From positions 142,773 through 206,772 of the IMG/VR virus record IMGVR_UViG_3300050014_000823: a stretch of 64,000 nucleotides of DNA; one strand, written 5' to 3'. This document shows positions 1,656 to 44,829 of the stretch, in pieces. The position numbers and the translations under genes were made by a program. Origin of the DNA: a virus. Below the pieces are notes generated by a model that had not been told where the DNA came from, searched no databases, and saw nothing but the letters and a program-made list of their open reading frames with translations. Numbering within the stretch: the stretch's first letter is position 1; each line of letters starts with the position of its first letter.

Positions 1656-2948
1656 ATGATAAAAGCAGTTAAAATAAGACTTTATCCGAACAAAACTCAA
1701 AGTAGTTATATAAATCGTCTATGTGGTTCATATAGAAAGATTTATAATATGTGTTTGGAGAAGAAAATAACCGCTTATACAACAGATAAAACAACAGTAA
1801 CATTTGGTGATTTAGGTAAATATTTTCATCAAGACCTAACTAAAAATGAAGAATTTAATTATCTTAATGAACACAATACTAAAGTATTAAAGCAAAGTAT
1901 TATTGATTTAATGGATGCCTATAAACGATTCTTCATCAACAATACTGGTTTTCCAAAATATAAATCAAAACATGACAGTAAACAATCGGCAAGGTTTCCT
2001 TTAGAAGCAATATCAAAACTAAATAGTTATTCAGATAATAAAATAACTTTAGGTAAAAACTTACAAAAGATTGGCTTTGAATGCAGTGACAGAGATAAAA
2101 ATTATTTAACTAATCATAAAGATAAAATTAAATCAGCAACTATAAGTAGAACCAAATCAGATAAATATTTTTTATCAATACTAATTGAAAATATAATTGA
2201 AAAACAAATACCAGAACCAACTAATGATATTTTAGGTATTGATATTGGTATAAAAGATTTTATGGTTTGTTCTGATGGTCAGGTATTTGATAACTTAAAG
2301 TTAAAAAGAAATAATGAAAAGACTTTAACTAAATTACAAAGACAATTAAGTAAAAAAGTTATTGGGAGTCATAACAGGTATAAAATCAAATTAAAATTAG
2401 CAAAGAAACACGAAAAATTAAATAATATAAAAATAAATTACATACATAACATTACAACTCAATTAGTTCGTGAGAACCAAACGATAGTTATTGAGAATTT
2501 AAATGTTAAAGGTATGTTAAAAAACCATTGTTTGGCAAAATCAATTCAAGATTTAAGTATCAACGAGACATTCAGACAGTTAAAATATAAATCTGAATGG
2601 TATGGAAGAGATTTGATTATAATAGACAGATGGTTTCCTTCATCAAAATTATGTAATGTTTGCGGTTATAAGTATAAAGAATTATCATTAAAAGAAAGGT
2701 ATTGGACTTGTCCAGACTGTGGAACACAACATAATAGAGATTATAATGCCGCAACAAACATTAAAAATGAAGGTCAGAGAATTTTAAATAATAAAATAGG
2801 GACACGTTATCCCGAATTTACGCTTGAGGACAATCCAACTATGGATGACAGACTTAGCAATAAGGTACTAAAAAGTAGTGATTGGTTGAGACAAGAAGAA
2901 AAAAGTACAAATAGTGAACGAAGTGAACTTCGTACTAATTTTTTGTAG
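1656..2948 (+). CDS. tnpB: TnpB (OrfB) RNA-guided nuclease of IS200/IS605-IS607 elements
   Basis: A 430-residue protein opening MIKAVKIRLYPNKTQ, the standard TnpB N-terminus. The split RuvC site is complete: Asp in GIDIGIKDF near residue 195, Glu in IVIENLNVKGM near 279, Asp in NRDYNAATNI near 362. A zinc ribbon (LCNVCGYK and WTCPDCGTQ) lies between the last two. TnpB proteins are guided by a right-end RNA to cut DNA next to a short target-adjacent motif, which helps keep the element in place. The ORF runs into the right-end hairpin, as expected when its 3' end overlaps the guide-RNA scaffold. All key residues are present, so it may be active. Confidence 0.93.
   Translation: MIKAVKIRLYPNKTQSSYINRLCGSYRKIYNMCLEKKITAYTTDKTTVTFGDLGKYFHQDLTKNEEFNYLNEHNTKVLKQSIIDLMDAYKRFFINNTGFPKYKSKHDSKQSARFPLEAISKLNSYSDNKITLGKNLQKIGFECSDRDKNYLTNHKDKIKSATISRTKSDKYFLSILIENIIEKQIPEPTNDILGIDIGIKDFMVCSDGQVFDNLKLKRNNEKTLTKLQRQLSKKVIGSHNRYKIKLKLAKKHEKLNNIKINYIHNITTQLVRENQTIVIENLNVKGMLKNHCLAKSIQDLSINETFRQLKYKSEWYGRDLIIIDRWFPSSKLCNVCGYKYKELSLKERYWTCPDCGTQHNRDYNAATNIKNEGQRILNNKIGTRYPEFTLEDNPTMDDRLSNKVLKSSDWLRQEEKSTNSERSELRTNFL
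2903..2936 (+). other. Right-end hairpin of the TnpB element, possible omega-RNA part
   Basis: ACGAAG (2918-2923), loop TGAA, CTTCGT (2928-2933) form a perfect stem inside the 3' end of tnpB. Subterminal hairpins mark IS200/IS605 ends and lie within the reRNA/omega-RNA scaffold. That this RNA is made here is inferred. Confidence 0.45.
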
Positions 2949-8138: not shown

Positions 8139-8148
8139 TAATAAATAC
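8139..8148 (-). promoter_or_regulatory. Late-type promoter motif (GTATTTATTA)
   Basis: About 30 nt upstream of the ribbon-helix-helix gene start at 8108. Confidence 0.45.
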
Positions 8149-30521: not shown

Positions 30522-31361
30522 TTATTTAAGTCCTTGTATTAATGTATCGCCATATTTAATGCCATCATATCCCATATGCTGTGCTTTTTCGGCAATTGCT
30601 TTATTTTTTAAGTTAATTGGTGGAACTTTATATTGTTCACCTAATTTTTCAAAGTTTACGTGCGGAAACCATGCTTTAGCAAGTACTTCTGCAGGTATTT
30701 GGCTGTCCTTATACTCGATGCCTAAGTCATTGGTATCAAGTAAGTTTTCAAAATCAATCTGATATTTAATAAATCCTTCAACAGGTGTTAATGTAAAGAA
30801 ATTTCCAATGACGGACCTTTCTTTAATTGGTTCTCTACGATACGCAATTATCGACTGGTCATTTTTGCTTGGATTTTCTGATTCAACGCCTGCATTATTT
30901 TCTTCAAGTGCTGAAAGAAATTCATTGTAGCTTACACCTGAGTTTGTTTGATTATTTGCATTAAGAACATCCTGTCCGACCACTTCTTCCATTTTCTGCA
31001 CTTCGGTATAGTCATAAACGTCCTGTATTTTATTTAAAAGTCTGCAGGCATCTTTAAATTCTAAGTCGATTTTAATTGCTGTCAACGGTAAGTTATCTGT
31101 TGTGGCAAAAACATACCGATGATGCCCGTCACAGATGGTATTTTCTTTATCAAGCCAAATTGGATTCATATCATTTGGCTTTGCTTTTTCAACATCATCA
31201 GAAAAAGTAAATCCTTGTGACACATTTAAATTTTTTAACTCTTCTGGACTAATTTGAATGTATTCATAATCAACACCCTCCTCATCGAGTTGTTTCACGA
31301 CAGCATCAACAGGTGCGCTAATCTGTGGCAAATAGTACGGCTTGTGTTTCATTCTTATCAT
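30522..31361 (-). CDS. Small polyvalent protein: ParB-like domain plus ART-like domain
   Basis: 279 residues. The N-terminal third has a ParB/sulfiredoxin-type core: IQISPEELKNLNVSQGF and the signature ICDGHHRYVFATTDNLPL. A linker of about 60 residues follows. The C-terminus (IGNFFTLTP, AEKAQHMGYDGIKYGD) resembles the ends of ADP-ribosyltransferase-like domains found in phage polyvalent proteins. ParB-like domains can be NTPases or nucleases. Its closeness to the 2688-residue protein suggests a shared role in the first steps of infection. The DUF723-type gene overlaps its start by 4 nt (ATGA). Confidence 0.6.
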   Translation of the reverse strand: MIRMKHKPYYLPQISAPVDAVVKQLDEEGVDYEYIQISPEELKNLNVSQGFTFSDDVEKAKPNDMNPIWLDKENTICDGHHRYVFATTDNLPLTAIKIDLEFKDACRLLNKIQDVYDYTEVQKMEEVVGQDVLNANNQTNSGVSYNEFLSALEENNAGVESENPSKNDQSIIAYRREPIKERSVIGNFFTLTPVEGFIKYQIDFENLLDTNDLGIEYKDSQIPAEVLAKAWFPHVNFEKLGEQYKVPPINLKNKAIAEKAQHMGYDGIKYGDTLIQGLK

Positions 31362-32101
31362 ATTACTGACAAATTTTTTAATTCACATTCTAATGCTTCT
31401 TTAACAGTGCCTAATACAGAATAAGGTATTTTAATTAATTTATAGCCATTGTTAATAGCATAATTAATTTTAATTTTGTCACGTTTTTTTGTATCCAATA
31501 AAGCATTGTCACCACCAAAAAAATCAACAGATTTATAATGTTGAATTCCATCGAACTCTATGAATATTTTATGTTTGGGTAGATAAAAATCATAATATAA
31601 ATTCGAAACAGATTTTAAATTATTAAATGTTACTTCACGCTCAAAGTTAATGTTGTGTTTCAACAAAATATTTGCTATTTGTTCTTCATTATGTGAAGCA
31701 CGACATTTTCTACATCCATATCCATGTAAATGTGCATGGGGCGTTTGTTCAAATTTACCATGCTTATTACAAATAATCGTTATTTTGTTTTCATATCCAC
31801 CATATTTTACTAACGAATAATCAAATCTATTGCCGTGCATTTCTTTTGCTTTTTCAATAAAAGTTTCATTGGTGAACCTATTTTCTTTTGAGATTTTTTC
31901 GTATTGACATTTCTTACACCCATATCCCGTTAAATGGTCATTCGGTGTTTGCAAAAATTCTCCATGTTTAGTACAAATAATAATAACTTTATTTTTGTTG
32001 CCAACATACTCAACTTTCGAATAATCATATTTATCACCATGTTTATTTAGTGATTTTAATATGAATTCTCCTGTGTTTGATTTTTTTGTTGACCTAATCA
32101 T
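31358..32101 (-). CDS. DUF723-type homing endonuclease-like protein
   Basis: 247 residues. Two DUF723-like repeats (KYDYSKVEYVGNKNKVIIIC; RFDYSLVKYGGYENKITIIC), each with Cys/His zinc-type positions (GYGCKKC, GYGCRKC), precede a nuclease segment with YYDFYLPKHKIFIEFDGIQH. It is paralogous to 24942-25634 and 44110-44829. It has its own promoter motif 13 nt upstream and overlaps the next gene by 4 nt, so it has either brought a promoter or taken over that of the ParB/ART gene. Confidence 0.78.
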   Translation of the reverse strand: MIRSTKKSNTGEFILKSLNKHGDKYDYSKVEYVGNKNKVIIICTKHGEFLQTPNDHLTGYGCKKCQYEKISKENRFTNETFIEKAKEMHGNRFDYSLVKYGGYENKITIICNKHGKFEQTPHAHLHGYGCRKCRASHNEEQIANILLKHNINFEREVTFNNLKSVSNLYYDFYLPKHKIFIEFDGIQHYKSVDFFGGDNALLDTKKRDKIKINYAINNGYKLIKIPYSVLGTVKEALECELKNLSVI

Positions 32102-33189: not shown

Positions 33190-36100
33190 TTATTCTACTT
33201 CGGTTACTTTTCCTGTTAATATCAATGGTTCACTCAAATTTACCCACATGCTTAATTGATTTGACATCATTGGTTTACCACCCTGTGCACGATTTACGGC
33301 AATAGTTATATGTGGCTTCTTATTCTTTGTGAGATATTTATCCACCACCACACCAACTGCCATAACCATATCATCCATAGAAAATTCTGTGGCTTCCATA
33401 ACAATAGTCATGCCCAAGAATTTCAAATACTCTGGAGCAATCGGACCTAAGTTCATTGTCATGTGATGTGCAATAGTTTCCCAACCTTCGGGAATCATAT
33501 TACCAAGTCTCTTAAGCAATGCTGTACGGGATTTGTCATCAAGCACCACGGCAGTATATTTCACATTTTTATTCATGTCTTCGTCAAGTACTTCGTTATC
33601 AACTAATTTGTGATATAAATCGTGTTTTAATTTTTCATCATGGCTGAAATCCTCATAATTATTCTGTAAGAATTCCAATACGGATTTATCTGATGCACTT
33701 TCATATCCACCTTGATTCCACTCATAATATTTATCCGTAAAGAAATTAATATCAACCTGTTGTCCATTTACGTTCCAAGTAGGCTTCTCTTGACCTGTTT
33801 CAGGATAACTATATTCGTTAAGTGTAATTGGTTCGCCTTTAACATTCTCATAATACTCCGGATAAAAATTATATTGAGGATTACGTCTTTTTGCAGCTCT
33901 TAAGAAGTCATTAACAATTTTTATGTTGTCATAATCATATTCATCTGCAGCAAAATCATAACTACTGTCAGCCAAACCGAAATCATTTGTGCTTCCAATT
34001 CTGTTTACAAGCATCCATTCAGTCAAATAATTATACATGGCTTCTGTATCACCCTCAATAAATCCCAATGCTCTACCAATATTACCATGATTAAAATAAC
34101 CGTCCTTTTGTGCAAGAAATAAATTGCCCTCTTGGTCAATTATTCCTCTGACTCCCGGACCGATATTCCGTAATGATTTAGGATTTTCATATATTGGTGA
34201 CTTTTTACCATTTCTATCTCTTACCATAGCAACTGGTTCTTCTTCCTGTGCCTGTACTGCACCCCTTGCAATCACGTCTTGTTCTGCACTCTGATTTGGC
34301 ATGTTAAACATCCTTTCAGCAGCTTTATCGGCAATACTTTCATCTACACTACCGTCAAGCATAAGTTTATCGCCATCATTGCCTTTATGACCTTTCCAAG
34401 TATAAACCAATTCAGTACCGTTAAGCATTCTGTTCTTCTCGAATGGTTTAATGTACTTCTGTCCTTCTCCGGGTTTAACATACGCAATTGTAATATGTGG
34501 ATGATAATCGGGGAATGCACTTGTATGTGGTAATGCTTTCATTATCTCATTTAATTTTGTAAGTTCTGGAGATTCAACATCGAACTTAACAACATCAAAC
34601 TTAGGATTACCAGTGAAAAACGATATGCCCTTAATTCCTATCTTAATTGGTTCTATCGGCATATTTTTTTCAAACAAACTAAAGCAATCTTCTGAAGTTA
34701 CTTCATCGTGAAAACCATATAATATTGTAGTATGTGGTTCTGTTTCAATTCCATATCCTGGCTCGTCATAAACATCATCAGGAGAAATTATTGACGTAAT
34801 TTTTGTCCAAATCGGAACGTCAAGAAACAACATCAGACATCCATATTCTATTTTGTCCGTGGGTTTTACTTCTTCCTTAATCATTTCGCCATTTTGTTTC
34901 GCCAAAGCTAATAAATCTTCACGATTATTCCTAACCTTATCTGCATAAACCTTTAGCAATAATGATTTTTGCATGTCGCCAATTGCCTTACCCTGTAAAC
35001 CAAGTTGTGACAAATCATTACCATTAACAGCTAATTCGTTGACAGTTTTAGGATATTTGCCCTGTTGAAATTCTTCTGAGGCTTTTTGAAGTCCCATTGG
35101 AATTATCTGACTCTGTAATGCCTGTGGACTTAGCAGATACATATTATGTGCAATTGACCTATCGAGAACATCATGTGTTATGTCGGGTAATGTAAACGCT
35201 AATTCAAGTGCTTTAATTTCCTTATATGTTGGGATATCACCTTTGAGATTATTCTTGTAAAATTCCGAAGGACTCTGAACAGTACCAACTGCCAACAGAT
35301 AAATAAATTCACCCATTGTTTTAACATCGGCAATTCTATCGCTAATCTGCTTTGGCTGTCCACCGAAAATCTGTTCATATAAGCCAGTATTCACAAGTAA
35401 ATCCGCACCCATTTTCACATTACCCTTCTTGATTATCTTATCGAATTCCGTTAAAATTCTCTCTGGTGCAATTTCTTTAACCCTCTGGGCATTTTCTTTT
35501 ATCATCTGCATAGTCTGTGGCTCAATTGTAAACCCGAAACGTGATGCAAATTGTACTGCACGCAACATTCTCAATGGGTCATCACTGAATGCCTGTGGAT
35601 TAACAATACGAATAATTTTGTTTTTAAGGTCTTCTTGACCACCAAATGGGTCAACTATATTACCCTCTGAATCTTTTGCAATAGCATTAATTGTAAAATC
35701 CCTGCGTTCCAAGTCTTTTTCAATCGGTAGTGCATGGTCAGACTTAACATCAAAACCTTGATGACCACCTTCACCCGTAGCTGTTTCAGTACGTGGAATA
35801 GCAATGTCAATATCATCGGTAGCACCCTTTGGCTTGAATTTCAACACACCAAATGATTTACCAACAGCATCTACACGACCATATTTGCCAAGAAGTTGTT
35901 CAAGTTCTTCAAACGGCACACCAGTAATAAGCACATCCAAATCTTTGGATTGTTTACCAAGAAATTCATCCCGGACCGCACCACCAACACTATAAATTTT
36001 ACCACCAAGTTGCTCAACCTCTTGTTTGAAAGGCAAGTCTTGTAATGACATTATTTCCGCTTCGTTCATGACTGATTCTTCAAGTGCATTATCTCCATAA

Positions 36101-39100
36101 AAACGTATTGATTCCGCTATGAATTCCATAGTCGGATTTTTTTCTTTTGCCAAAGATAAGAATTTTTCGTAATATGGCAACGCTTCTTCTCTTTTTGGTA
36201 CAGTTTCCCAATAACTTGAATGAAAGTTTCTTTTTTCTTCTGGATATAACGGTGCATTTGACTCTCCAACTAAGATGATATTATCTCTTTTATATCGTTG
36301 AACAGTCAAAAAATTAGTTGGTGGGGTTTTATCCCAATGTTCCTCATTTTCAATGACTCCCAAGCTATTGAGGGTATAGAGTAATTCGAAGTGTATAACA
36401 ACACTTTTTTGTTCAGTGTATAAGTTTCCTTCTTTGTCAACAACACCCCGGACATCACCCCAAATATTTTTCCAAGATTTCGGATTTTTTATTATTACCA
36501 ACCCATTTTCGGGATTATTGTAAACGATATCTTCGGAATCCTGCTCCCTGTTGAACCTATCGTTGAATTCTGCATCAGGATTCGGAACATTAAACATTTT
36601 TTCCGCAGCAACATCCGCTACACCTTCGTCAACACTTACTGGTTCTCCTTCAATAAAAGTATAATATTCTTCATAAAACTCATATTGTGGATTTCGTCTT
36701 TTTGTGGCTTTCAATATATCAATTGCATTGTCATAGTTATGCGCATTTGAATTAATATATCTTGAAGAAATGTCCCCCAAACCGAAATTATTTGTTAAGT
36801 CAACCCTATTAAGTAATTGATATTTATCTAATTCTGAATATATTCTTGCATCAATCGTGAATAATCCCAATGCTTTTGCTATATTACCGTGGGTAAATGA
36901 ATAATCTGCTTGTGCAACATATAGATTTCCATCTGTATCTGCGATTGCCCGTACATCCCTTTGAAATCTTTCTAAGGATTTGGGATTTTTATAAATTTGA
37001 CTAACTCTTCCAATGGTATCTACTACTTCTCCAACAGGTTCATTCGTATTTTTTTCTATCTCACCCTGTGCTTGAACGTCTTGTTCTGCATGTGGGTCGG
37101 GAATATTAAATGCTTTCTCAGCATATTTATCAGCCACACCTTCCATTTGATATTTCTTACCACCCGTAGGTTTGAAATTCTTCTTAAATGCAGTGTACAT
37201 CAGACTTGAAATTCTTTCAGATTCTCCTTCTTCACTGATACTCTCTGTTCTTTTTCTGAAAAGCAATTCAACTTTATTTGCAATGTCATGGGCGTTATCG
37301 TATGTATAACCATAATGCTTGATAAGATAGCTTTCAACCCTTTCATGAAGTAAAATCCCTTCAAAGTCGTTTGGCTTTGTCAAATGTACGTCATCAACCC
37401 AAAGTTCGTCTGCTGGAATGTGCTTAGCATATTTTTGCTGTGATTTTGGTAAGTCATAGTCAACCCAATGATTGCCACCTTCAACCCACTCAATAAAACC
37501 ACTGTCACGCACTTCGTCACCATTAACTGCATAAACGGGATTGACATCAATACCGTCATTGTATGTACGGATTAATTTCTTATCCAATTCATGTGTAGTA
37601 TTGTCTTTCTCAATCTGTGGTTCACTTACAGGAAATTCTTCTTCGTGTATTGTGTTTTTCATTTTATCGAGATACTGCTCATAGTCTGTATCTTGAAATA
37701 TTTCAGAAGTTTCTTCGTCTGGCTCATCGTATGCTTCTAAACCATTAATCTCATAGAAAGCATTCATTCTCTTTTTAAAATCATCAGTAATATCGACTTT
37801 GCCAATATAATGACCTTGTACTGCCCTTCTGAATCTAACTTCTTTTAAATAAGTAAAATCACCTATTTCCCAATGAGAAATGTCCGCATCGGGTTTTTCG
37901 TTTATTTCATAAACATAAAAAACTCCCGGATTTTTACCGTGTTGCATAAACATCGAATACAGTCCCATTAAAGCACCACCAACACTTTTACTTGCAGCAA
38001 TTTCTGGTGTTTCACTAACCCAAAACGTATCATACTTATATATTGGATTACCGTCATCGTCAATTGCTTCGTAATAACCTTCGGGTTCAAATTCAATCGT
38101 TTCACCCATATATTTTTCAACAGCACGATAATATTTTTCACCACCACTTGTTACCACTTCATTTATTGCAGTATTGGGAAGTCTGTACATCAACTGCATA
38201 GTCTGGAAGTCCTTATTCCTGCCTTTGTTCATGATAAATCCCAATGATTTATACCATGCAGTTAGTTTAGACTTACTTGCGCCCCACATACTATCGGGAG
38301 TTAATGTAACAATTAATTTATTTCTGTCGGCATAGTCAAAGATAAGTTTCATTGCATCATTGGCATATCCTTTACCTCTGAATTCTTTGTTGATAAAAAT
38401 TTTATCTATTGCGATGTAATGATTCTGACCTTGAACGCCTCTGTCCATGATACCTACCTCACCAACGACTTGACCATCATCAGTTATCTTAAGCGAATCA
38501 TATCCGCTTAAATTGTTTGGTAGATTAAGATTCACAGACTCTTTAATACTACCAAATGTCAAGTTGCCAATATCTCCTTGATTACAGGCAGTGCTTGTAC
38601 CGTCACCATTACCACCAAGTCTGCACTTTTTCTTAACATCAACAGTTTTACTGCCAGATTGAAACGACTGAACTCTTTCTGTTATTTGAAATTCGTCTTG
38701 GGTTGCATCACCGACAACATGGTTATATTCTAAGTCTTCGTTTACTTCACTGTTTGCGTTTAAATCGTTGCTTATTGAGGGTGAAGTGTCCATATTATTG
38801 TATGTTGGAAAATTATCTTGACCAAAACTATTGTCTGTCGAATATAATGCTGAACCGTCTTCGTCAACTTGAACAGGTTCTGGCATATTATTAGATTTAA
38901 AAAAATAATTACCAAAACCTACATCAAAAAATCCCAAATTACCATTTGGTTTATATCCTAAGTTATTTGGATTTGTATAATCTGTACTTTCTAAGCCGTA
39001 TTTTTTTACTTCTTCGCCAATTTTAAGTATTTTATCAAAAAATTCTCTGTCTTGTGGATTTCTTGCAAAGTATTTTTGAACCTTATCTTCATCCACATTG

Positions 39101-41256
39101 TCATCGCCAAAACGATTGTGTATGAAATGGTCAAGAACATCGCCATAGTTTGCACCCATTATTTTTTCAAACGCAAATTTCATTCTTTCAACTCTTGCAA
39201 TAAAATCAGCCTTATCTGTTCTTAACTTCTCTAAGATTATCACATAAAGGTCATATCTCGTTTCGCCCGACAATGTATTAGACTTAATTGAGTAGACCTT
39301 ATATGGTTGAGCAATGTATTCTAATGGTTTACCAATAAGTTCAAGATTTTCATTTGCTTCGCTTTGGTCCTTAGTAACCTTTAATACTAAATTGTTTCCT
39401 ATATCATATGCATAGCCAAATACACCATCACCAAGAGGTTTTGGCTGACCATATCCAAACTTCTGTGCTACACTATTCGCCACTTTATTAGCGACTTCTC
39501 TCGGAAATCCTGTAGGTTCTTCATTCAGTACTTCTTCACCTTCGGGTAAAGAAATTCGGTTTTCTGGTGGTAAATCCGGTACAACTACACCCATGCATCC
39601 ACCTATGTCATAGTATGTTAAAATACCGTTCTTATATCCCAAATTACTGAGAGTCATATAATCGTCTGACTTAATCATCAGTGCAAGTAATTCTCTTTTA
39701 ATGTCATAGAGTCCCAACATAAAACGATATGCCTTTTCTCTATCGCCTGCAGCAATATTAGCATCGGGATTTGCCGTTAAAATTAGTTTAGCTAATTCTG
39801 GAAAATCGTTAAATGTTTTTCCAAAAAATTCCGTATCTTCTTTCTTAGGTTTACCTTTGATTAAAATTCTCAATAACCTACCGTATAAGTCTTCACCGAG
39901 CGAATTAATTATTTCAGTGTATCTTTCAAATTCCTGATGTGGTTTATCAACAATATTGTCTTCGATAAGCGCATAAACTGCTTTGTTTTGTTCGGTGTCA
40001 GTTACCTTATACACATTGTAAACCATTGCAAGTGTTTTAGGCTTACCCCTGCTAATTTTTAAACCAGCATCGACCTCACATGCATCAGTAGTAATTTTTA
40101 AAACCCTGTTGTTATTAACCTCATAAGCATATCCATATCCACCACCACCAAGATATTTAATAGCACCAAGATTTAACTTCTGTGCAACCGCATTAGCAAG
40201 AGTATCAGAATATTCTCTTGGTAATTGCATTGCTGCAACTTTTGGACTACTCTCATTTATTTCTACAGTTTCTTCCTCAAGTGGTTCTCTATCATAGAAT
40301 TTACCTCTGATAAGATAGTCTTGAAGTTCCAATAAGTTACTATAAAATTTCTTTTTCTCAGGTACGTGTTCAAGTACTTCTTTAAGGTTGTTTACTACAT
40401 CATGAAATTCATCGACAATATATGGAGCACTTGGAAGTTTTGATGTTGGATATTTGTCTCTGTTGAGTACAAATGAAATAAAATCTTCATTAATTACGCC
40501 AGGTCCGTCACCTACACCGTAAGGCATAAGTCCCCACATAGCTTGTCGGGTATCAACGGCATCTTGTGGTGGTAAATCACCAAGCATATCGTCATTACCA
40601 TCGGCAAAGTTATAAAGTTCATACATTTGATACTTTTGGTTTTTGCCACTATAATGAGTATCTACAACTTCATCATTTAACCCATAGTCGGTTAAAACTA
40701 TTGCAGGTTTACCGTTACGCAGTACTTCTCCAAAGGTACTTGGTCTACCCATATCGCCTGAGTTTTGAGCATAGCTTGCAACAAAATCGGCTAATGAAAA
40801 TGCAAATTCGTTTTTATTCCAAAAAAATTCTTCAAGTTCGGGTGATTGTGGAAATATTTTCTTATGCCCCTTACTTAATTCTTCGGCATTCTTAAGAAAC
40901 TCTTTTAAATCATTCAAACTTGGAATACCTGTTACTTGTTTAATACGTGCTTCATTGACTTTCTTAGCCTTTTCTGCTATCAACCAAGTATCGTCATCCA
41001 TAGAATCAATAACCTTTGCAAGTATATGATGATTGCTTTCAAAATATCCTGCACCTGTCTCTGCTTCGTTTTGACCAACACCTTTGGGGTTTTTCGCAAG
41101 TTTTAATACCTTTTCACCATCAATGTCATAAACGATTCGACCACTACCACTACCAATTCTCGGTAAGTATTGATTTGCGTACTTTATTTTTCCATTAAAT
41201 GATTTAATTTTAAGGAATTCTGGTAAGAAATTCGTTTTGAATTCAGCGTATGTCAT
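33190..41256 (-). CDS. Giant polyvalent protein: kinase-like x3, GNAT, ART-like, metallopeptidase-like, CCA-adding-type NTase, 2H phosphoesterase x2
   Basis: 2688 residues. Approximate order: kinase-like 1 (1-330; GSGSG, LTDYG), 2 (345-560; LGGGGYGYAYEV, DIGG), 3 (585-790; LGDGVFGYAYDI, DVGF); GNAT acetyltransferase (910-1020; NKEFRGKGYANDAM); ART-like (1035-1170; YYRAVE, FWVSETPE, EVRF); metallopeptidase-like (1240-1335; LLHERVESYL); two copies of a 150-residue repeat (1370-1535, 1550-1715); class II CCA-adding/poly(A) polymerase-type head and neck (1745-1960; YSVGGAVRDEFLG, DLDVLI, RRDFTINAIA); 2H phosphoesterase 1 (2135-2290; PHTTILYG, PHITIAYV); third repeat (2312-2470); 2H domain 2 (2565-2688; HHMTM, PHITIAV). 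Domain fusion on this scale is typical of phage polyvalent proteins injected with DNA. Enzyme activities are inferred from motifs. Confidence 0.82.
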   Translation of the reverse strand: MTYAEFKTNFLPEFLKIKSFNGKIKYANQYLPRIGSGSGRIVYDIDGEKVLKLAKNPKGVGQNEAETGAGYFESNHHILAKVIDSMDDDTWLIAEKAKKVNEARIKQVTGIPSLNDLKEFLKNAEELSKGHKKIFPQSPELEEFFWNKNEFAFSLADFVASYAQNSGDMGRPSTFGEVLRNGKPAIVLTDYGLNDEVVDTHYSGKNQKYQMYELYNFADGNDDMLGDLPPQDAVDTRQAMWGLMPYGVGDGPGVINEDFISFVLNRDKYPTSKLPSAPYIVDEFHDVVNNLKEVLEHVPEKKKFYSNLLELQDYLIRGKFYDREPLEEETVEINESSPKVAAMQLPREYSDTLANAVAQKLNLGAIKYLGGGGYGYAYEVNNNRVLKITTDACEVDAGLKISRGKPKTLAMVYNVYKVTDTEQNKAVYALIEDNIVDKPHQEFERYTEIINSLGEDLYGRLLRILIKGKPKKEDTEFFGKTFNDFPELAKLILTANPDANIAAGDREKAYRFMLGLYDIKRELLALMIKSDDYMTLSNLGYKNGILTYYDIGGCMGVVVPDLPPENRISLPEGEEVLNEEPTGFPREVANKVANSVAQKFGYGQPKPLGDGVFGYAYDIGNNLVLKVTKDQSEANENLELIGKPLEYIAQPYKVYSIKSNTLSGETRYDLYVIILEKLRTDKADFIARVERMKFAFEKIMGANYGDVLDHFIHNRFGDDNVDEDKVQKYFARNPQDREFFDKILKIGEEVKKYGLESTDYTNPNNLGYKPNGNLGFFDVGFGNYFFKSNNMPEPVQVDEDGSALYSTDNSFGQDNFPTYNNMDTSPSISNDLNANSEVNEDLEYNHVVGDATQDEFQITERVQSFQSGSKTVDVKKKCRLGGNGDGTSTACNQGDIGNLTFGSIKESVNLNLPNNLSGYDSLKITDDGQVVGEVGIMDRGVQGQNHYIAIDKIFINKEFRGKGYANDAMKLIFDYADRNKLIVTLTPDSMWGASKSKLTAWYKSLGFIMNKGRNKDFQTMQLMYRLPNTAINEVVTSGGEKYYRAVEKYMGETIEFEPEGYYEAIDDDGNPIYKYDTFWVSETPEIAASKSVGGALMGLYSMFMQHGKNPGVFYVYEINEKPDADISHWEIGDFTYLKEVRFRRAVQGHYIGKVDITDDFKKRMNAFYEINGLEAYDEPDEETSEIFQDTDYEQYLDKMKNTIHEEEFPVSEPQIEKDNTTHELDKKLIRTYNDGIDVNPVYAVNGDEVRDSGFIEWVEGGNHWVDYDLPKSQQKYAKHIPADELWVDDVHLTKPNDFEGILLHERVESYLIKHYGYTYDNAHDIANKVELLFRKRTESISEEGESERISSLMYTAFKKNFKPTGGKKYQMEGVADKYAEKAFNIPDPHAEQDVQAQGEIEKNTNEPVGEVVDTIGRVSQIYKNPKSLERFQRDVRAIADTDGNLYVAQADYSFTHGNIAKALGLFTIDARIYSELDKYQLLNRVDLTNNFGLGDISSRYINSNAHNYDNAIDILKATKRRNPQYEFYEEYYTFIEGEPVSVDEGVADVAAEKMFNVPNPDAEFNDRFNREQDSEDIVYNNPENGLVIIKNPKSWKNIWGDVRGVVDKEGNLYTEQKSVVIHFELLYTLNSLGVIENEEHWDKTPPTNFLTVQRYKRDNIILVGESNAPLYPEEKRNFHSSYWETVPKREEALPYYEKFLSLAKEKNPTMEFIAESIRFYGDNALEESVMNEAEIMSLQDLPFKQEVEQLGGKIYSVGGAVRDEFLGKQSKDLDVLITGVPFEELEQLLGKYGRVDAVGKSFGVLKFKPKGATDDIDIAIPRTETATGEGGHQGFDVKSDHALPIEKDLERRDFTINAIAKDSEGNIVDPFGGQEDLKNKIIRIVNPQAFSDDPLRMLRAVQFASRFGFTIEPQTMQMIKENAQRVKEIAPERILTEFDKIIKKGNVKMGADLLVNTGLYEQIFGGQPKQISDRIADVKTMGEFIYLLAVGTVQSPSEFYKNNLKGDIPTYKEIKALELAFTLPDITHDVLDRSIAHNMYLLSPQALQSQIIPMGLQKASEEFQQGKYPKTVNELAVNGNDLSQLGLQGKAIGDMQKSLLLKVYADKVRNNREDLLALAKQNGEMIKEEVKPTDKIEYGCLMLFLDVPIWTKITSIISPDDVYDEPGYGIETEPHTTILYGFHDEVTSEDCFSLFEKNMPIEPIKIGIKGISFFTGNPKFDVVKFDVESPELTKLNEIMKALPHTSAFPDYHPHITIAYVKPGEGQKYIKPFEKNRMLNGTELVYTWKGHKGNDGDKLMLDGSVDESIADKAAERMFNMPNQSAEQDVIARGAVQAQEEEPVAMVRDRNGKKSPIYENPKSLRNIGPGVRGIIDQEGNLFLAQKDGYFNHGNIGRALGFIEGDTEAMYNYLTEWMLVNRIGSTNDFGLADSSYDFAADEYDYDNIKIVNDFLRAAKRRNPQYNFYPEYYENVKGEPITLNEYSYPETGQEKPTWNVNGQQVDINFFTDKYYEWNQGGYESASDKSVLEFLQNNYEDFSHDEKLKHDLYHKLVDNEVLDEDMNKNVKYTAVVLDDKSRTALLKRLGNMIPEGWETIAHHMTMNLGPIAPEYLKFLGMTIVMEATEFSMDDMVMAVGVVVDKYLTKNKKPHITIAVNRAQGGKPMMSNQLSMWVNLSEPLILTGKVTEVE

Positions 41257-41275: not shown

Positions 41276-41285
41276 TAATAAATAC
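41276..41285 (-). promoter_or_regulatory. Late-type promoter motif (GTATTTATTA)
   Basis: 19 nt upstream of the giant protein's start at 41256; supports late expression with virion genes. Confidence 0.5.
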
Positions 41286-41303: not shown

Positions 41304-41325
41304 AAAGGACATCTTACTGTCCTTT
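41304..41325 (-). terminator. Terminator hairpin overlapping a stop codon
   Basis: AAAGGACA pairs with TGTCCTTT; the stop at 41314 of the upstream gene lies inside the loop region. A-rich plus strand gives a T-rich tail on the minus strand. Confidence 0.65.
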
Positions 41326-42126
41326 ATTTTTGTTTTTGTTTTGTAATTCTCGTATGGTTTCGTAAACCACCGATTTTATCATTTCCTTATTCTCTGTAAG
41401 CACTTCTTTGATTCTTTCAACAGCATACATTTCAAGTATGGTTGACTTAATGGCTTCCTCCACAATCGGACCGAAGTTTTCCATGAGATAGTTATTCACT
41501 GTTCTCTTTACACTCTCAGTTAAATAACCCTCATTAATCATTGGCATACCATTGTTTCCGAATGACACTGCAGGTGGATTTAATAGACTTCCATCAGGAT
41601 TAACGGGTTGTCCCTTGGCATTGTATAGCTGATTTGCAGCCATTGCTCTATTGTTATTAAAACCTTCGATAGATTCAGCAAGAGTTCCATTATTACCTGC
41701 CACACCAACACTTCTGAATTTTCTTTGAAAATCACTGAAGATTGCATCGTCTCTTTCTGGTCCCATTCCCATATCGGCTTCATTAATTCTTCCCGGCTGA
41801 ACATACTGTGGGGGTTGATTGTGTTGCGGTGCTGCAGGAGCAACATAATTTGTAGAATTTTTTAATTCCTTAATTTTATTTATCGCTTCAGGTGTTACGA
41901 CACCACTTTTAACTGCGCCACTAATAATGTCTGCCCTTTCATTCATTGTCTTTATATTGTTCACAACAGGAGTATTCTGACCTGTATGAAGTGATGTAAG
42001 CAAGCTATTTAGGAATACATCTTTTGCAGGTATTGTAGTACCTTGCATTGTTTCACCAAGAATGCCTTTTTCCTTTTTGCGGGTATCTATCTCAGTTCTG
42101 AGTTTATTTAAATCGGGTTTTGCCAT
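41314..42126 (-). CDS. Uncharacterised protein, possibly structural
   Basis: 270 residues. The N-terminal part is helical (MAKPDLNKLRTEIDTRKKEK), the middle is rich in Pro, Gln and Asn and likely disordered, and the C-terminus is an amphipathic helix bundle (VKRTVNNYLMENFGPIVEEA). No family is recognised. It has its own promoter motif and a terminator at its stop. Scaffold-like or internal virion roles are possible, without direct evidence. Confidence 0.62.
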   Translation of the reverse strand: MAKPDLNKLRTEIDTRKKEKGILGETMQGTTIPAKDVFLNSLLTSLHTGQNTPVVNNIKTMNERADIISGAVKSGVVTPEAINKIKELKNSTNYVAPAAPQHNQPPQYVQPGRINEADMGMGPERDDAIFSDFQRKFRSVGVAGNNGTLAESIEGFNNNRAMAANQLYNAKGQPVNPDGSLLNPPAVSFGNNGMPMINEGYLTESVKRTVNNYLMENFGPIVEEAIKSTILEMYAVERIKEVLTENKEMIKSVVYETIRELQNKNKNKGQ

Positions 42127-42173: not shown

Positions 42174-43064
42174 TTATTTGAAAAAAGTCGGTTTATTTAG
42201 ATTTTCTTGTGCAATATTTGTTCTATTTAATTCATTCACTGCATCACTTTCGGCATTTTTAAAAAATCCGACATCGGTTTGCTTCTGACTTGGCTGAACT
42301 AATTTCACGTATAAGTCTTTAAGATTTCCAACAACTGAATTAGGGTCAATGCTTTGTAACTGATTCTCTGTTTTCAATACCATATCGCCATTCTCTGTAC
42401 TAACCACCCAATATTTTGCTCTTGAACCACCTGCTCTCATCTGATTTACCATACCCCACAGATGTTTAACTTCATCGGCAGTAATATCTCTTTGTTTTTT
42501 AGCAACATTTGAGAAATTTCTGAACTTATTCTTTTGTCCTGCAAATGCAGATGGTTGTGGTTCGGGAAGTTTTTGTGCAGTAGTATTACCCACAACATTT
42601 GTTTGTGGTTCACCGCTATCTATTTGTACTGCAGCCACAATGCCCGTCATTTGGGAATCATTGGGGTTATATCCTTCGGGAAATTTATCTTTGTTTGTAC
42701 TGAAAATTTCACCTGTCGGTAAAAAGGATGTAATTTTATCTACTCTGAATAATCTCCATCCGGGTTTAGCCTTTCCCTTTTGATTATAATATACTTTCCT
42801 ACTGTCGGTGTTACCTGCTTCCTGCCATGCACGAAGTAACATATATCCACCTTCCGCTTGTGCTTTCTGTGATTTACTATGACCCAATACCATTGGCATT
42901 ATTGTTCGATAACCTTTCATAATGGTGTCATCACCAGCATAATATATGTGAACATACTTATGCTTATTAATAGCATCGGCAATAGTACCCTCTCCAACAC
43001 CTTCATTTAAAAGTTGCCTGAAGTGAGTCAGGGTTTCCAAGAATATTTTAGCCTCACTTAACAT
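42174..43064 (-). CDS. WYL-like domain protein
   Basis: 296 residues. Residues 30-120 match the WYL fold: KHKYVHIYYAGDDT, GYRTIMPMVLG, GYMLLRAWQEAG and KPGWRLFRVDKITSF. WYL domains bind ligands (often nucleic acids or nucleotides) in regulators of DNA damage and phage-defence systems, normally after a helix-turn-helix that is absent here. The C-terminal 170 residues are low in complexity with a helical segment (ADEVKHLWGMVNQMRAGG). It may sense or bind nucleotides; the domain call is by pattern. Confidence 0.62.
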   Translation of the reverse strand: MLSEAKIFLETLTHFRQLLNEGVGEGTIADAINKHKYVHIYYAGDDTIMKGYRTIMPMVLGHSKSQKAQAEGGYMLLRAWQEAGNTDSRKVYYNQKGKAKPGWRLFRVDKITSFLPTGEIFSTNKDKFPEGYNPNDSQMTGIVAAVQIDSGEPQTNVVGNTTAQKLPEPQPSAFAGQKNKFRNFSNVAKKQRDITADEVKHLWGMVNQMRAGGSRAKYWVVSTENGDMVLKTENQLQSIDPNSVVGNLKDLYVKLVQPSQKQTDVGFFKNAESDAVNELNRTNIAQENLNKPTFFK

Positions 43065-43346: not shown

Positions 43347-44132
43347 TTAATCGTACTTTTTAAACGATAATGTTATGTATTCAATCAAATTTGGTACAAT
43401 GTCCAGGTAATGCATTTCATCCACATCATACCAACCATAGTTTGTGTTTTCGGCATTATCTAACTCAATTTCAGTTGGGTCGCCCTCATATCGACAAGCA
43501 AAAACTGTTTCAATGCTCTCAGGATTCCTTTGTATTGTGAAGGTCCTGACAAACTTATTAATTTCCAACCCAATTTCTTCAAGTATCTCTCTCTCAATAG
43601 CACGCTGTGGAGTTTCACCCTTCTCAATAGCACCACCAACCAATGCCCATTTCTCCGGCATCCAAGGTGCTTCTTTGCCTCTTTTCAACAGTAAAATCTT
43701 ATTGTCGTTATTTACAATAACTGCAACGGCATTTTTTTGTTTTTCTTCTTTCTTCTCTTTCTTTTCTTCATTCAGTGTTGGCATGGGACTATTCGGCATT
43801 AATTCTGAATTAGGATTTGATGTCATATCCTGCTTGGTTTCTTTTGACCTTGCCACACCTGCTCTATCTTGTGCTAATGAAGTTTCAATAAACTGTCTCA
43901 TTGCTTCCCCACCAGCAAGGGCATATTGTGTTTTATCATCAGTCTGTGGATTAAAATAATCAAAGAAGTTTTTAAGTCTTTTCATTGCTTGATATGTTAA
44001 ATTACCGTTCTTAAGAATGAAATTAGCACGTTTAAGACCATTTTCATTCGAAGTGGATGCTTTAGCCACCGCAATACCATTAAGTACATTTGAGGGTATC
44101 CTATATGTCTTATCTTTGAGATATTGGTTCAT
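43347..44132 (-). CDS. Nudix hydrolase with N-terminal extension
   Basis: 261 residues. Residues 1-130 are an extra helical and charged region (KNGNLTYQAMKRLKNFFDYF, then KKEKKEEKQ). Residues 134-255 are a Nudix domain with the box GGAIEKGETPQ..EREILEEIGL (about 166-189), matching Gx5Ex7REUxEExGU. Nudix enzymes cleave nucleoside diphosphates linked to another group; possible targets are oxidised dNTPs, ADP-ribose, NAD or RNA caps. With ART-like domains nearby, ADP-ribose is worth considering. The upstream homing gene overlaps its first 23 nt. Confidence 0.82.
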   Translation of the reverse strand: MNQYLKDKTYRIPSNVLNGIAVAKASTSNENGLKRANFILKNGNLTYQAMKRLKNFFDYFNPQTDDKTQYALAGGEAMRQFIETSLAQDRAGVARSKETKQDMTSNPNSELMPNSPMPTLNEEKKEKKEEKQKNAVAVIVNNDNKILLLKRGKEAPWMPEKWALVGGAIEKGETPQRAIEREILEEIGLEINKFVRTFTIQRNPESIETVFACRYEGDPTEIELDNAENTNYGWYDVDEMHYLDIVPNLIEYITLSFKKYD

Positions 44133-44829
44133 ATGCTTCTAAGATTTTGTTTATTCTGTTGATTTGGTCAAACTTTATTCTCAATAGAAAGTAGTTGTTT
44201 GATTCTGCAAAAGTATTTTTTATTTCATCGTTAATTTTCTGGATTCTAAACTTATCAAGTCCACCGAAATGGTTATTAGCTATAAAGTGTTGTGCACCAT
44301 CAAACTCTATTAATACGTTGTTCTCTGGAAGAAAAAAATCGAATGCAAGTTTATTTATATTTTTACAGTCATTAAATTTTTTCTCTCTTTCAAAAGCAAT
44401 TGAATTATTTATTAAATATTTTGCAATCTCTCTTTCTCCGATAGATTCTGTACAACTGGGACAACCACATCCTTTTAAATGAGTATTTGGTTTTTGATTA
44501 AATTTTCCATGAATCGGACATAATATTTCTACATAAATATGTGCTGTTATATAGTTAACATTAGAATAATCATATCTATCTCCGTGAATTTCTTTTGCTT
44601 TAGTAATAAAATAATCAGTATTTTTTCTTAATTTCATTTTACCACACAATGGACAACCACAACCCTCTAAATGAGTATTTACTCGCTGTATGAATTCGCC
44701 ATGTGTGGGACATGATATGATAATATTATCGTGTGTATGTTTAAAATCAACCAAATCATACTCATAATAATTATTGTGCACAGCATTTGCTTTAGCAATA
44801 AACGCATCTATAGTTAATATCCTTGCCAT
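44110..44829 (-). CDS. DUF723-type homing endonuclease-like protein
   Basis: 239 residues. Two DUF723-like repeats (YYEYDLVDFKHTHDNIIISC; RYDYSNVNYITAHIYVEILC) with GCGCPLC and GCGCPSC zinc-type sites, then SIGEREIAKYL and a nuclease core FDFFLPENNVLIEFDGAQH. It is paralogous to 24942-25634 and 31358-32101. Its ATG overlaps the upstream stop by one base, and its end runs 23 nt into the Nudix gene in another frame. Confidence 0.78.
   Translation of the reverse strand: MARILTIDAFIAKANAVHNNYYEYDLVDFKHTHDNIIISCPTHGEFIQRVNTHLEGCGCPLCGKMKLRKNTDYFITKAKEIHGDRYDYSNVNYITAHIYVEILCPIHGKFNQKPNTHLKGCGCPSCTESIGEREIAKYLINNSIAFEREKKFNDCKNINKLAFDFFLPENNVLIEFDGAQHFIANNHFGGLDKFRIQKINDEIKNTFAESNNYFLLRIKFDQINRINKILEAYEPISQR

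Follow-up and report, generated by a model that had tools for sequence, protein, structure and literature searches.

A giant multi-domain gene in a T4-type phage genome

The stretch of DNA analyzed here (the window) comprises 64,000 nucleotides, positions 142773-206772 of a virus record (G000) of 299,144 bases (~299 kb). One of its genes, P0001, encodes a protein of 2688 residues; the coordinates, strand and ATG start read from the letters were confirmed exactly, with zero internal stops (Table 1). An identical copy of P0001 was found on contig 3300050015_000656. The record is that of a T4-type phage, as a gp23 major capsid protein and an S77 prohead protease are encoded in the same genome as P0001. 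Its capsid protein is closest among cultured phages to those of Flavobacterium phage immuto and Rhodothermus phage RM378 (27-33% identity), and a Bacteroidota host is therefore likely. When P0001 was searched as a whole protein against a collection of cultured phages, only single-domain matches were obtained, and none of these phages had the full architecture.

The genes surrounding P0001 are included in Table 1. In the relatives at loci L020-L023, the spacing between the giant gene and one shared conserved gene upstream of it is constant. A WYL label for the gene at 42174..43064 was rejected, with a Pfam E of 0.03 under the cut-off. A NUDIX gene (window 43347-44132, 1.3e-19) has a long N-terminal extension with an L-N-E site (TLNE/EKK) right before the domain; the NUDIX part hits a PHROG that is labelled as portal protein. 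A pair of HNH homing-endonuclease-like genes, similar to each other, flanks the polyprotein region (window 31358-32101 and 44110-44829), and two similar OrfB/TnpB-like transposase genes are present in the genome (window 1656-2948 and L008:1022-2359). No defence system was called in a PADLOC run.

The window has 24 copies of the motif GTATTTAT (at 8141, 13509, 18153, 42162, 43337 and 53480, for example), where 7.4 would be expected; 23 of them are on the coding strand. Its extended form GTATTTATNNTNAA occurred 13 times against 0.3 expected, nearly always on the coding strand and in many cases just upstream of genes, which makes it a strong candidate for a phage promoter. A late-type motif had been proposed upstream of P0001; the copy of GTATTTAT is indeed there, in the shorter form only, and the extended form does not fit at this position.

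Module composition of P0001

Table 1. Features of P0001 and neighbouring genes. Positions are those of the window; a slash marks the position after the Glu of a site.
Feature	Residues	Position	Strand	Basis
Polyvalent polyprotein gene P0001	all 2688 aa	33190..41256	(-)	ORF check; identical copy elsewhere
Kinase-like K1 and family signature YELYNFADGNDD...GVINE/, I-N-E site at E257	1-257	40486..41256	(-)	phrog_4301, XacN1 ORF170 homologue, alignment
Helical segment ending INE335/S, joint to K2	258-335	40252..40485	(-)	No Pfam match
Kinase-like K2 ending LNE579/E	336-579	39520..40251	(-)	Alignments: G-loop, VLK, D...N, DxG conserved
Kinase-like K3	580-799	38860..39519	(-)	AF2 pLDDT 89.7; Foldseek to APH and protein kinases
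Acidic or basic linkers, sites VNE840/D, ITE860/R, IKE906/S	800-906	38539..38859	(-)	Family breakpoints 799, 858, 907
GNAT acetyltransferase ending INE1033/V	907-1033	38158..38538	(-)	Pfam; DarB-like/PLxRFG relatives; Atu_ph07 homologue
ART-like module (unproven) ending IHE1205/E	1034-1205	37642..38157	(-)	Place and pattern as in Atu_ph07 ART-like proteins
HE..E...AH module ending ISE1342/E	1206-1342	37231..37641	(-)	Alignment; no PDB or Pfam match
Orphan repeat R1 ending VDE1544/G (non-canonical)	1374-1544	36625..37137	(-)	Alignments
Orphan repeat R2 ending LEE1727/S / MNE1732/A	1545-1732	36061..36624	(-)	Alignments
Complete CCA-adding tRNA nucleotidyltransferase ending IKE2128/E	1733-2128	34873..36060	(-)	Profiles; stand-alone homologue in LR756504
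2H phosphoesterase (HTT...HIT) ending VDE2306/S (non-canonical)	2129-2306	34339..34872	(-)	PF13563; stand-alone homologue in LR756508
Orphan repeat R3 ending LNE2481/Y	2307-2481	33814..34338	(-)	AF2 pLDDT 83.8
Small module ending LDE2559/D	2482-2559	33580..33813	(-)	Matches a portion of a stand-alone 172-aa ORF of relative L022
tRNA-ligase CPD (2H) cyclic phosphodiesterase module	2560-2688	33193..33579	(-)	PF08302; HxT...HxT invariant; encoded on its own in many relatives
GTATTTAT late-promoter-like motif, 22-29 nt upstream of P0001 ATG		41278..41285	(-)	Window-wide count
Candidate prohead core/scaffold-like protein, several I-N-E sites		41314..42126	(-)	Gap of fitting size ahead of the giant gene in L020-L023
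Gene with N-terminal LLNE/G; relatives keep it upstream of their giant gene; WYL weakly		42174..43064	(-)	Pfam
HAD/PNK-type RNA-repair phosphatase, next-but-one gene downstream of P0001		32125..32703	(-)	phrog_415 1e-6; PF10307 1.4e-4, below cut-off

The sequence-only reading had listed kinase-like, GNAT, ART-like, peptidase-like, CCA-adding and 2H domains. Four of these assignments stood, with GNAT, CCA-adding and 2H recovered in the per-domain profile search and the kinase-like one resting on structure. The ART-like segment gave no profile match and is unproven, and the peptidase-like assignment was not confirmed: residues 1206-1342 matched nothing in Pfam or the PDB, and their invariant H, E, E and H form the motif HE..E...AH rather than the HExxH of zincins. 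Three copies of a repeated orphan-fold domain, R1-R3, came in addition to that list.

By sequence profile, the kinase modules had no significant match in the PDB or Pfam, and their kinase-like identity was resolved only by a structure model. The AF2 model of K3 gave 69 PDB matches at E<=0.001; APH(2'') phosphotransferases came first, and MEK and GAK kinases were among the rest. E values started at 4e-5 but TM scores were low (0.38-0.43). Together with the G-loop, Lys, Asp..Asn and DxG residues, this fold match predicts a protein kinase/APH-like fold for the kinase modules, K1 being placed by alignment only. At residues ~214-257, P0001 carries a conserved signature of ~45 aa (ELYNxADGNDDxLSDIG...MWAxxPYxVxDGxGVINE) that recurred in ~36 relatives, either N-terminally or directly after K1. 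Ending in INE257, it is a candidate encapsidation signal. A T4-type N-terminal targeting peptide (10-20 aa, ending in L/I-X-E), considered for the MTYAEF start akin to T4 internal proteins, is not clearly present and was set aside, as LPE13/F occurs there but is not conserved.

The GNAT module (~907-1033; PF13508, 7e-7) and the 2H module (~2129-2306; PF13563, 2e-6) both exceeded the profile cut-offs. The CCA-adding module (~1733-2128) matched PF01743 at 3e-23 and NCBIfam PRK13299 at 6e-47 over profile positions 11-393 of 396. The C-terminus is another 2H-type domain, which matched the fungal tRNA ligase CPD (PF08302) in 9/9 family members, at best with 3e-7. The CCA-adding, 2H and CPD families act on RNA ends. 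An identity of the first 2H module as the anti-CBASS protein Acb1 was rejected, since PF23474 scored 21.7 bits against a cut-off of 27 and generic 2H profiles matched better. Two RNA ligases are encoded elsewhere in the genome; the RNA ligase family profile PF09511 gave no match, and the controls were likewise blank.

The model of the R domain was confident (pLDDT 84), and a fold search of the PDB and BFVD with it returned no match. Other R-domain proteins, one of them with an ART-like N-terminus, are encoded in the same genome at L009:8086-9351, L009:9375-9818 and L010:13389-14336, a list that includes a small GNAT starting MNLKGLIKEE. These proteins are possible additional packaged cargo.

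Relatives of P0001 and module exchange

IMG/VR was scanned with several P0001 modules, which gave ~150 loci; after removal of redundancy, 77 proteins with 400 aa or more remained. The longest relative (3198 aa, L145:566-10162) exceeds P0001 itself. Among the ~77 relatives, modules were reordered, gained and lost, and BLAST alignments between them ended at 479 breakpoints, which we took as module joints, a definition free of any motif. The spread of the modules differed, with HE..E...AH at only 16 loci, while kinase and CPD modules were seen at 71-79. P0001 chains kinase-like, GNAT, CCA-adding (Pol-beta NTase fold) and two 2H domains, enzymes of the conflict repertoire that are shuffled combinatorially among relatives, and this places it by sequence in the polyvalent protein class; the earlier assignment to this type of phage protein thus held, on domain content and on the relatives of the GNAT module in DarB-like and PLxRFG proteins.

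The C-terminal CPD was fused in some phages and encoded by its own gene in others. Of the fused copies with at least 60 residues upstream, 28/41 had [LI].E within 25 aa upstream of the module (background 0.28), and those lacking it were nearly all a different two-domain protein of ~310 aa. Separate CPD genes mostly started with Met directly at the domain.

L/I-X-E motifs at the module joints

Each of the 400 possible pairs of residues two positions apart was ranked by its occurrence near the 479 breakpoints, and the top two were L.E (213 vs 118 expected, z 8.7) and I.E (194 vs 115 expected, z 7.3), compared to a maximum z of 4.24 in a family-wise null of 300 circular shifts. V.E (z -0.7), M.E (z 1.3) and F.E (z -2.8) were not enriched there. 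A first motif definition, [ILVM][ND]E, was accordingly replaced, as the unbiased ranking enriched only L and I at P3. The ranking was robust to window width and breakpoint strength, except at the widest setting of 15 aa, where conserved pairs like C.Q ranked alongside.

In five non-redundant subsets of 19-23 proteins, [LI].E was found within 10 aa of ~60% of breakpoints compared to ~30% expected (z 5.5-7.7; p 0.001, the lowest value that the permutations allow), and the control classes [VMF].E, [LI].D and [LI].[KR] showed little or no enrichment. In smaller non-redundant sets, L.E and I.E were singly at the top but mostly failed the family-wise null, and only the pre-specified class [LI].E passed. 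The 329 junction sites represent 218 distinct contexts, with a preference for Asn at P2 and for Glu, Ser, Thr, Asp or Asn at P1'.

Candidate cut sites of the canonical L/I-X-E form in P0001 are those at 257, 335, 579, 860, 906, 1033, 1205, 1342, 1727, 2128, 2481 and 2559. Within P0001, the motif was present at 17/70 linker Glu and at 20/160 Glu in folded domains (p 0.02, with hand-drawn linkers). As this excess is modest, the case rests on the family. The joints at 1544 and 2306 have V-X-E only, so R1-R2 and 2H-R3 may stay joined. In Tunturi_5 gp273, another polyvalent protein, L/I-X-E joints were not obvious when read by eye.

Protease, capsid and packaging

The gp21 protease of T4 cleaves after L/I-X-E (PMC9026906). 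The predicted cut site of the capsid protein was [IL]xE/ in 14/14 homologues examined (MINE/S, LLTE/A and LISE/T), the same motif as at the joints. Among 20 relatives searched, an S77 match was found in 12 records, and gp23 in 12/12 of those; the records with no S77 match were contigs of 218 kb or less. With L/I-X-E at the places where cuts would be expected, and with S77 and gp23 in one phage, P0001 is a candidate gp21-type substrate. The ORF of the prohead protease (L008:15639-17588, G000 ~295,639-297,588) is split by an intein-like insert beside the catalytic motif, so that the protease would be inactive before splicing. Such inserts were also seen at L190, L191, L192 and L193: they follow ADHPD here as well as in G001, G002 and G006, and in G010 the insertion point is a short way off. 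The S77 protease of the relative G003 carries no intein.

The same joints could alternatively be conserved recombination linkers in a chain that is packaged and injected whole. The virion RNA polymerase of N4 is a precedent, as a polyvalent protein packaged uncut (PMC5512222), and modules have demonstrably been exchanged at the joints. Linkers for recombination, however, need not follow the gp21 preference for L or I, and not V, M or F, at P3 with Glu at P1, nor would recombination explain the motif at the cut site of the capsid protein or its presence in 218 distinct contexts across the 329 junction sites. We therefore regard an intact chain as unlikely.

We infer that P0001 is packaged in the head from the joint motifs, the core-like neighbour, the late-promoter-like motif and homologues in a virion-protein cluster of Atu_ph07. 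In Atu_ph07, a GNAT is followed by an ART-like segment, with ITE where P0001 has INE. If numbering starts at the first CDS, this protein is CDS 63, inside the CDS 31-76 cluster, for which 29 virion proteins were reported by mass spectrometry, a figure for the cluster as a whole (PMC6102473). An unpackaged protein, made late and acting in the cytoplasm in assembly or late host control, would also agree with the late-promoter-like motif, but leaves aside the adjoining core-like gene, the protease motifs at the joints and the Atu_ph07 cluster; we consider it improbable. Least probable is self-processing by the HE..E...AH module: the module is conserved, with its four residues invariant, and processing by zincins was proposed for polyvalent proteins that bear them (PMC5512222), but it has no HExxH and no peptidase profile or PDB match, and it is present at only 16 loci, yet the same joint motif runs across the family.

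Proposed processing and function

The reading that we prefer, with reasonable confidence, is a head-packaged polyvalent polyprotein that is made late and cut by the prohead protease into separate enzymes injected with the DNA. The sequence-only reading had proposed one injected machine, which is probably wrong. In the pathway that we infer for the cleavage, packaging, injection and function of P0001, late expression would be followed by packaging into the head, where the phage's own T4-gp21-type (S77) protease would cut after Glu at the inter-module L/I-X-E sites during head maturation. Cuts at the canonical sites would release single modules, with K3 retaining a linker: kinase-like, GNAT and CCA-adding enzymes, the 2H and CPD phosphoesterases, and the orphan R domains. 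The freed enzymes would leave the head with the DNA and act during the first minutes of infection. Related phages swap modules at the L/I-X-E joints.

Protection in these first minutes against several defences had also been proposed. No specific support was found for CBASS, Thoeris or retrons as targets, and the RNA-end enzymes would fit the repair of damaged tRNA better. Given the CCA-adding, 2H and CPD modules, the HAD/PNK-type neighbour and the two RNA ligases, their most economical role would be to mend tRNAs whose ends have been damaged by nucleases of host defence. For the kinase and GNAT modules, the most plausible task is the modification of host proteins, in line with what has been suggested for polyvalent proteins.

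More broadly, we lean slightly towards a system that is widespread in large T4-type phages, whose hosts are probably Bacteroidota, but has gone undescribed: the protease of capsid maturation would also process polyproteins, setting free swappable anti-defence and RNA-repair enzymes in the head. Any module between two L/I-X-E sites would then be injectable cargo, and the payload would include a virion-borne tRNA-repair kit. If so, a single rule, L/I-X-E at the joints, would explain how giant injected proteins become many working enzymes, and cargo modules and their borders could be read straight from the sequence in dozens of uncultured phages. Capsid maturation would be linked to counter-defence, ready-made tRNA-end repair enzymes could be delivered alongside the DNA, and new modules, the orphan R domain among them, could be catalogued.

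Comparison with known systems

Polyvalent proteins and gp21 processing are each known; for their combination, an enzyme polyprotein cut by a prohead protease, no report was found in the open literature searched. Polyvalent proteins were described as phage chains of 2-15 domains that mix kinases, GNATs, ARTs, Pol-beta NTases and 2H domains (Iyer et al. 2017, PMC5512222). They were considered likely to be packaged, cassette recombination was suggested, and a kinase class came from Bacteroidetes phages. In that work internal processing by zincins was proposed, whereas the motifs of P0001 point to a separate prohead protease. P0001 also adds a CCA-adding enzyme, a CPD and the orphan R domain; the term 'tRNA nucleotidyltransferase' is absent from the text of PMC5512222.

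The inner-body and ejection proteins of phiKZ and SPN3US (PMC5694885) are similar in that they belong to giant phages and are ejected after cleavage by a head protease. They differ in their S/A-X-E and A-X-E motifs, in processing by propeptide removal and in having no enzyme chains. Phage P1 (PMC12810830) likewise has injected anti-restriction proteins, those of the Dar system (DarA, DarB/DdrB), with DarA cut by Pro, and the GNAT of P0001 has relatives in DarB-like proteins. In P1, however, processing removes an N-terminal piece, and there is no whole-protein homology to P0001.

Other parallels are Alt, IPI-III and the core proteins of T4, which have L/I-X-E, the protease family and the capsid family in common with this phage (PMC9026906). 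The T4 cargo is ejected with the DNA, and core proteins are cut into several pieces (PMC9026906). T4 makes this cargo as small individual proteins, each bearing a targeting peptide, whereas P0001 chains many enzymes in one precursor.
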